Source: a virus. From it: a stretch of DNA of 24,524 bases. Location: the IMG/VR virus record IMGVR_UViG_3300021137_000094, positions 1-24,524 of that record. One strand, 5' to 3'. The position numbers and the translations under genes are program-made. Shown here piece after piece: positions 20,831 through 22,326 of this stretch (its first letter is position 1; each line of letters begins with the position of its first letter). The notes under the pieces are model-generated. The model was not told the DNA's origin and ran no database searches. It worked only from the letters and a program-made list of their open reading frames with translations.

Positions 20831-21416
20831 ACTCAATCTTGCTGCACAGGCATGGTATGATATCAACTGGCTGAATCGTCATTACCATAATTGGGGCCAC
20901 GCTCTCAATGTTGTAAAAGGAGTTCAGGTCATTGATGAAAACGCATCACCCGAACTGATTTTGGCAGCATACTGGCACGATGCGGTATATGTGCCGGGTG
21001 CTGGATCCGATGCTAACGAACGATGCTCTGCTGCCGCGTTAGGACAGGAAGGAATGAGATACGATGATCCCGAAACTGCTCGCACCATCGAGAAGGCTAA
21101 GCGACTCATCATACAAACTTCAGTTGAAAATCATCTGACGGGAGGCCGCATCTCTGGTGATTTGGGAACCTTGCTGGATGCTGATCTTTCTACGTTGTGT
21201 TATCCATACGAAGACTTTATTGAGATTCAGAAAAATATTATCGAAGAAAATGGCGGCACCTATCCAAGAGATGGGCATTTAAGTGCTGCCTTCCTGAAGA
21301 ACTTTCTGGAATGCCGTGAGTTTATCTACCATACCGACTTTGCTCGGGAAAGGTGGGAGAATCAAGCAAGGGCAAATATTGAACGGTATCTTAAGGAACA
21401 ACCGTTGACAGAGTAA
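20820..21416 (+). CDS. HD-domain metal-dependent phosphohydrolase
   Basis: 198 residues (ATG 20820 or 20823, AAGGAAG upstream). Motifs: HYHNWGHALNV (first His), AAYWHDAVYVPGAGSDANE (the HD pair), and DADLSTL (last Asp), in the usual order for HD hydrolases of the predicted-hydrolase group COG4339. Such enzymes remove phosphates from nucleotides or related compounds. In the ligase operon it may serve nucleotide metabolism. The gene end contains the promoter of the large ncRNA. Confidence 0.85.
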   Translation: MMNELNLAAQAWYDINWLNRHYHNWGHALNVVKGVQVIDENASPELILAAYWHDAVYVPGAGSDANERCSAAALGQEGMRYDDPETARTIEKAKRLIIQTSVENHLTGGRISGDLGTLLDADLSTLCYPYEDFIEIQKNIIEENGGTYPRDGHLSAAFLKNFLECREFIYHTDFARERWENQARANIERYLKEQPLTE

Positions 21417-21433
21417 GTAAGAGGTCTTATACT
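21405..21433 (+). promoter_or_regulatory. Promoter of the 850-nt non-coding unit
   Basis: TTGACA (21405-21410), 17-nt spacer, TATACT (21428-21433). Transcription should start near 21440. No gene follows for about 890 nt. Confidence 0.8.
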
Positions 21434-21561
21434 ACATACATGAGATAGGGGATTTATAGAAGCACACGACAAGGACACATACGCCCTGCAAGGCGGCGCT
21501 GTTCAAGTTCGGTTGCAGCCGAAGAGCACATTTATCTGTGTCTTTAGGTGTGTTTCTATAA

Positions 21562-21660
21562 GTTCCTGTATGAGACAGTGGGCCTGCATCCTACGTCTTA
21601 AACGGCTGCGCTGGTATTCTTTTAATATATCAGTTTGGGGTTTCGAGTCCCCTTAGGAAT
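21562..21660 (+). other. tRNA-like element 1 inside the ncRNA
   Basis: GTTCCTG (21562-21568) pairs with TAGGAAT (21654-21660), closed on the 3' side by a T-arm-like hairpin GGGG-TTTCGAGT-CCCC (21637-21652), with an 8-nt loop where tRNA has 7. No clear D-arm. Contains the GACAGTGG motif shared with regions A and B. Confidence 0.4.
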
Positions 21661-21669
21661 TTTTGATAC

Positions 21670-21768
21670 ACTCTTGAAATGGGGATGCATTGAATGAGTT
21701 TTGTCATCGGGTCCTGCAAGCATGCCTTAGTGACCATTCGGTGTTCGGTTCAAGACCGGAGCAAGAGT
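21670..21768 (+). other. tRNA-like element 2 inside the ncRNA
   Basis: ACTCTTG (21670-21676) pairs with CAAGAGT (21762-21768); T-arm-like hairpin TTCGG-TTCAAGA-CCGGA (21744-21760) with a proper 7-nt T-loop. No canonical D-arm; a GATG/CATC stem lies between. Not a normal tRNA. Confidence 0.45.
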
Positions 21769-21863
21769 AACTAAATATAAGTCTATACCGAAAGGTGTAT
21801 ATCTGTGTCCCACCCAAGAAGCACAGACCAAATATGCGGGCATGTTAGTGGAAGGCTAACAAC

Positions 21864-21962
21864 ACACAACTGATGAGTCGGCAACGACGAAACTTTTGAA
21901 ACTTGAAGGATTGTTCGGGACGCCAGTGTGAATGGTAGATCCTCGTTTCAAAGGTATTGTGT
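21864..21962 (+). ncRNA. Hammerhead ribozyme (type I layout)
   Basis: Complete core: CTGATGA (21870-21876), stem II GTCG-GCAA-CGAC (21877-21888), GAAA (21889-21892), stem III CTTTTGAAAC (21893-21902) pairing with GTTTCAAAGG (21945-21954) with one G-T pair, extended by the A15.1-U16.1 pair, then the cleavage triplet GTA with the cut after 21956. Stem I is ACACAA (21864-21869) with TTGTGT (21957-21962). All invariant core bases are present. It would split the large RNA into pieces of about 517 and 337 nt. Confidence 0.88.
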
Positions 21963-22269
21963 TGAAACAATGGTACCGGTATTTAACATAACCTACTCTG
22001 AATATCCTATTACCAGTGAAGGGATATTTGATGGTATATTATATAAAGGGCTGAAGGCAACTATGTGGGCTATCCACCTACAAAGGAGATATATCCAAAG
22101 ATGCTAAACGATAACTTAATAGAAAAGGGGTAAAACCCCGGCCACTTATTATTAGCCCAATGGGGAGATAATAATGTCAAATAATATAGAATGAAAATTA
22201 GATGGAGAAGGCCAGCGATGGAGGAAGATGCGTAAGCACCGACCGTTGAAGTTAAGCTGCCAAGAGATT

Positions 22270-22293
22270 GCCCAGGAAACTGGGCTTTCTTTT
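22270..22293 (+). terminator. Intrinsic terminator of the large ncRNA
   Basis: GCCCAG-GAAA-CTGGGC (22270-22285) followed by TTTCTTTT. Its last T bases are shared with the next -35 box. Confidence 0.9.
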
Positions 22294-22321
22294 GACTATA
22301 AATTCTACCTTATGCTATAAT
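22292..22321 (+). promoter_or_regulatory. Sigma70-like promoter giving a leaderless start
   Basis: TTGACT (22292-22297), 18-nt spacer, TATAAT (22316-22321), 5 nt, ATG 22327. Confidence 0.65.
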
Positions 22322-22326
22322 ACGAT

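Follow-up and report, generated by a model that had tools for sequence, protein, structure and literature searches.

Type I hammerhead ribozymes are known from both bacteria and phages, where their locations include phage intergenic regions and sites upstream of phage genes (PMC3088659; PMC6155905), and their role in these organisms has been described as an open question (PMC6155905). In the HHphage representative of haloviruses HF1 and HF2, the cleavage site is no more than three nucleotides away from a mapped 5′ end, and the ribozyme probably processes a phage transcript (PMC3088659). Hammerheads have also been reported before ardA in three Legionella strains (Perreault et al. 2011, PMC3088659).

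Here we describe an element found in a 24,524-base IMG/VR record (hereafter the window), a phage fragment that carries ATP-dependent DNA ligase, phosphohydrolase and homing-endonuclease-like genes and three tRNA genes. By every sequence test available, positions 21864-21962 of the plus strand constitute a genuine hammerhead. We consider it rather likely that this element is an active type I hammerhead that, acting in cis, forms a self-cleaving boundary within a large noncoding RNA of a phage.

The hammerhead element and its recovery by searches

A descriptor search, RNAalifold and covariation all assign 21864-21962 to a type I hammerhead, in which the sequences CUGANGA and GAAA are combined with three in-register stems and an NUH triplet before the cut. 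Stem I pairs ACACAA (21864-21869) with UUGUGU (21957-21962) over 6 bp. The core segment CUGAUGA (21870-21876), identified by the descriptor and by comparison of copies, leads into stem II (GUCG-GCAA-CGAC, 21877-21888), whose pairs 21877-21880/21885-21888 enclose a GCAA loop. The second core segment, GAAA (21889-21892), supplies G12, A13, A14 and A15.1, as copy comparison also indicates. Stem III and its long closed domain occupy 21893-21954; the basal helix (21893-21902/21945-21954) has 10 bp, including one U-G pair, and is closed by 42 nt (21903-21944). The A15.1-U16.1 pair corresponds to 21892-21955 and the GUA triplet to 21954-21956, and the position of cleavage deduced from the hammerhead fold is after A17, between 21956 and 21957. 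Stem I is open to the remaining RNA and stems II and III are closed, as in type I. An earlier note on this DNA had located all of these elements, and its placement holds to the base in the window, as does its description of the pairs as exact apart from one G-U.

The full type I descriptor has one match in the window, which is this element. At the element's quality (a sum of helix pairs of at least 18), 400 dinucleotide shuffles of the window gave no match on either strand, and a lenient setting gave 0.0075 matches per shuffled window, again over 400 shuffles.

In a search with the Rfam hammerhead models, which the earlier note had named as a check, no model reached threshold in the window. 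The best match, Hammerhead_3 at 21849-21898, scored 23.2 bits against a gathering score of 48.5, a value that is a library cut-off and not a defining property of a hammerhead molecule. We dropped the Hammerhead_3 topology, as it is sub-threshold and places the stems unlike the covarying type I fold. The Rfam models are probably thrown off by the length of the closed stem III, which would explain the missed call. A BLAST search against 50,697 phage records returned no real relative, the lone match being 43 bases (E = 6e-3) within a helicase gene.

Conservation, covariation and competing folds

Related phage contigs were recovered by using the ligase and phosphohydrolase as queries, and the noncoding RNA region was placed in them by blastn. 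The surroundings of the ribozyme were read in the window and in L013, L010, L011, L012, L017, L020 and L014, where several contigs fall into the same contig or sequence groups (L013 with L007, L008, L015 and L046; L010 with L004; L011 with L005; L012 with L006; L017 with L018 and L019). The hammerhead is kept at the same locus in the related lineages, with one per searched related record, and a reversed-pattern control for the ribozyme search gave zero matches. With a looser pattern, a distant copy was found in a 385-kb phage contig (IMGVR 3300009709_000001), which reads ACACAG-CUGACGA-GUUC AUAAG GAAC-GAAA-CGGC...GCCG-UA-CUGUGU. This copy resides upstream of a lipoprotein-like gene that also follows the unit in L010, L013 and L017. 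A search anchored on the lipoprotein gene added another phage contig, L066, whose related locus yielded no hammerhead.

All eight intact copies have CUGANGA, GAAA and GUA, and L014 is the only locus read whose core bases are not intact. In that locus the sequence diverges from the family after the stem II hairpin and the letters ‘GA’, and an HNH-like ORF, whose Pfam match is below the cut-off, starts about 20 nt further on; in contig coordinates (L014:9820-9890), the core is broken after ‘...GAGCGA’ and 9886 is the first position of the ORF. A homing element may have inserted in the most conserved site of the ribozyme. L020 has one additional U in stem II and, given this base and the interrupted core of L014, some phages may do without ribozyme activity. 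The peripheral regions are more varied. The stem II loop is GNRA in close relatives, AUAAG in the 385-kb phage and longer in L017, and the sequence that closes stem III spans roughly 30-90 nt, depending on the lineage. Beyond its basal helix lies a conserved bulged motif, CUUG(U/A)AG.../...CUCG, which the 385-kb phage retains (CUUGUAG.../...CUCG) despite other rearrangements.

RNAalifold, applied to six loci (alignment A3), returned stems I, II and III unprompted. On this structure 98.1% of cells are paired and eight pairs are changed on both sides among the six loci. None of 500 shuffles, which leave the relatedness among loci in place, does as well. When partners were slid, pairing fell to 40-49%, a control that leans in the structure's favour because the structure was derived from the same alignment. 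Compensatory changes occur in stems II and III within the close family. Stem I is invariant within the six loci, and its compensatory variation is limited to the 385-kb copy, where pair 1.1, next to the core, is changed from A-U to G-C. The covariation expected of a hammerhead is present within these bounds, and these comparisons establish the structure, conservation and covariation of the element.

The 11-base core is short, and a 59-aa ORF with a GTG start overlaps the ribozyme, features that would suit a chance match or a coding artefact. Against this stand the empty result of the 400 shuffles, the covariation of the family and the relatives that have no conserved ORF at the locus. Because position and core are conserved and compensatory changes are found in all three stems, the element is not a product of chance; its conservation had already refuted that reading, to which we assign a negligible probability.

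Computed folding energies are less favourable. With nearest-neighbour parameters, which leave out core and tertiary contacts, the probability of stem I in the window is 0.01 when downstream sequence is included and 0.50 if the RNA ends after stem I. The main computed rival in the window is a register of stem I slipped by two bases (CAACACA/UGUGUUG), which is better by 3.2 kcal/mol. In fast natural hammerheads, stems I and II must touch through a loop-loop or pseudoknot contact; the stem II loops of the close family are GNRA. For L012 the hammerhead is the minimum-energy fold.

The predicted misfolding of stem I in the window, together with the extra base in stem II of L020 and the interrupted core of L014, would be accommodated if the hammerhead had decayed and were retained, inactive, as a structural piece of the RNA alone. 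We regard such decay as highly improbable, given that the core is invariant in all eight intact copies, one of them distant, that compensatory changes affect all three stems, and that a structural role alone would not require G12, A13, A14 or the GUA triplet.

Another fold bears on how cleavage might be controlled. In the lineages examined, the 3′ product can fold its first 20 nt into a hairpin in competition with stem I, a pairing that is well supported in L017 and the 385-kb phage only. In the window this hairpin (ATTGT 21956-21960 with ACAAT 21967-21971) amounts to -1.4 kcal/mol and is less stable than most shuffles. The earlier note had cited its dominance as grounds for rejecting the ribozyme, and the fold proved too weak in the window to be kept as a dominant structure. 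As a conserved post-cleavage lock it was demoted to a minor idea, since its stability is below that of most shuffles and covariation is absent in the close family.

The competing hairpin and the long stem III, with a bulged motif that survives even in the 385-kb phage, could nonetheless belong to a regulated hammerhead. By way of the stem III domain and of the alternative, mutually exclusive pairing of the stem I 3′ strand, cleavage would then depend on a ligand, a protein or an RNA conformation, and splitting of the RNA would be restricted to a particular stage of infection. We consider regulation of this kind unlikely, as the hairpin is weak in the window and lacks both-side changes within the close family, and as no known aptamer was matched. 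In a bolder form, which we hold to be equally doubtful, the locus would define a new large phage RNA family processed by its own hammerhead, with stem III as the sensor and a functional RNA released at a chosen time of infection.

The noncoding transcript and the proposed role of cleavage

The ribozyme is situated in a noncoding unit that extends from 21405 to about 22293 on the plus strand, downstream of the phosphohydrolase gene. A sigma-70-type promoter, TTGACA-N17-TATACT (21405-21433), matches at 11 of 12 positions, and the hexamers TTGAC and TATA are aligned with 17-base spacing in all eight homologous loci. The other end is marked by an intrinsic-terminator-like hairpin, GCCCAGgaaaCTGGGC, followed by a T run (22270-22293). 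The scan that called this terminator (GCCCAGgaaaCTGGGC-TTTCTTTT) is by itself no better than chance; G+C hairpins followed by T runs are found near the same place in L010, L013 and L017. No ORF of at least 60 aa is present on either strand of 21417-22326, the longest being the GTG ORF (21928-22107) that crosses the ribozyme. The location of the ribozyme within a promoter-to-terminator unit, as claimed at the outset, is thereby borne out for a unit that has no long gene.

Several other structured domains accompany the ribozyme. A 5′ domain (21448-21567), recovered by RNAalifold, has a closing helix of about 20 bp (21448-21467/21547-21567) around two hairpins, with nine pairs changed on both sides, an outcome equalled by none of 500 shuffles. 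Its loops CUGCAA (21486-21491) and UUGCAG (21513-21518) are fully complementary and invariant in seven loci, and are a possible kissing pair or dimerisation site. A second CUGCAA is located at 21714-21719, within a tRNA-like module described below. The next hairpin module (21583-21662, alignment A1) is present in every locus but L013 and contains an element, GGGGTTTCGAGTCCCC, whose resemblance to a T-arm was judged by eye alone. The tRNA-like module (21670-21768, RNAalifold) carries a 7-bp ‘acceptor’ helix, ACTCTTG/CAAGAGT, which changes to GCCTTTG/CAAAGGC among loci, and a T-arm with the loop TTCAAGA (21745-21759). Nine of its pairs are changed on both sides, again with no equal among 500 shuffles. 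Neither ARAGORN nor Rfam calls a tRNA at 21670-21768, and the resemblance is confined to the acceptor-like helix and the T-arm.

Just 5′ of the ribozyme, a hairpin module (21803-21860) consists of GTCCCACCCAAGAAGCAC and then GTTAG-TGGAAGG-CTAAC. The GTCCCACCCAAGAAGCAC module precedes the ribozyme in the window, L013, L014 and L017, and also occurs in the 385-kb phage contig, 1.3 kb upstream. Two distant phages (L047/L061 and L017:9645-9760) share it in the form GTCCCACCCAAGAAGCAC ... TTCTTTGGYCGGTTAA..TCCG.ATAGAC..GTCGATAAACA; in the 385-kb phage it directly follows a GIY-YIG-like ORF. It has no Rfam match, and the idea that the distant module represents a group I intron or a known large RNA was dropped for this reason. 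On the other side of the predicted cut, the 3′ RNA domain (21957-22269) begins with the six bases of the stem I 3′ strand and is aligned in seven loci; in the eighth, the 385-kb phage, it is indicated at the expected place by synteny and an nhmmer E value of 0.05 only. An Rfam search of the domains surrounding the ribozyme matched no family, and the multi-domain RNA looks like an undescribed family.

What immediately precedes the ribozyme differs among lineages. Hairpin modules are found there in the window, L013 and L017 and are missing from L010 and L011, L012 and L020 have small ORFs that stop immediately ahead of the ribozyme, and in the 385-kb phage the stop codon of the upstream ORF falls inside it. 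As read directly from the alignments, the upstream sequence is exchanged among lineages while the ribozyme and 3′ domain stay in order. This persistence of the ribozyme as a boundary next to changing upstream sequence makes splitting or maturing the RNA, the job suggested in the earlier note, the best-supported function on present sequence evidence. RNA processing is also the simplest one, because selection holds the ribozyme in a transcript that has no long gene to regulate.

Under the proposed scheme, transcription would start near 21440 and end near 22293, and the ribozyme, on emerging from the polymerase, would make its single cut between 21956 and 21957. The upstream product, of about 520 nt, would retain the body of the ribozyme, which would form a structured 3′ end bearing a 2′,3′-cyclic phosphate, and the downstream product, of about 340 nt, would start with a 5′-OH and end at the terminator. 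We infer that cleavage takes place and that these products are the functional forms; the selected function would be to free the 3′ domain from whatever precedes it. With one predicted cut and two RNAs of known size, the locus is a clear-cut setting in which to ask what role hammerheads play in phages.

Comparison with known systems

Hammerheads were also seen in other sequences during these searches. An unrelated phage represented by L003 (minus strand) and L002 (IMGVR 3300044732_000574 and 3300042569_000224) has, on a single strand, 12-14 hammerhead-like cores. In L003, eight type I copies are intact and their predicted cuts fall 28-57 nt ahead of an RBS-ATG, a pattern reminiscent of an mRNA chopped into pieces that share a similar 5′ leader. 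More than 20 additional viral contigs (L070-L074, L077, L079-L081, L083-L085, L088-L097 and L099) have near-identical type I hammerheads, AACACAA...GUC UUGUGU, directly before an RBS-ATG, often that of the same gene (MAHLIENNAITGKAEI) and sometimes two per locus. Many Legionella species (L100, L103, L106 and other loci) have a hammerhead-like sequence whose stem III is very short, for example AACACAACTGATGAG...CGAAACCACCAGGTCTTGTG, and some of these genomes have more than one copy.

In retrozymes and viroid-like RNAs, repeated ribozymes cut circular or tandem RNAs. Because the window RNA has one ribozyme copy, circle formation is not expected for it, and a circular or retrozyme-like element was dropped as a candidate, each related record having one ribozyme. 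The likeness to those RNAs is that the hammerhead sets RNA ends (PMC4918200). GOLLD and ROOL are likewise large noncoding RNAs with many structured modules (PMC12286853), a general likeness only; the window RNA differs from them in having a hammerhead and another module order, and Rfam models of GOLLD/ROOL-like families gave no match to it. The tRNA genes of the window, which lie elsewhere, were noted beside this likeness.

HHphage resembles the window ribozyme as a phage hammerhead with probable transcript processing. The two differ in that HHphage is followed after 13 nt by a helicase start codon and has insertions in its core, whereas the window ribozyme has a consensus core and noncoding RNA downstream. 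With the type I hammerheads of bacteria and phages in general, the window ribozyme shares the core, the three stems and the open stem I (PMC3088659; PMC6155905). In the open-licence PMC literature we found no hammerhead in a promoter-to-terminator phage RNA without a gene. Unlike the known type I cases, the window ribozyme belongs to a large multi-domain RNA that has its own promoter and no long gene, carries a long closed stem III with a conserved motif, and is maintained throughout a phage family in one copy and at one locus. Phage hammerheads are known; the setting of this one and its elaborated stem III look new.
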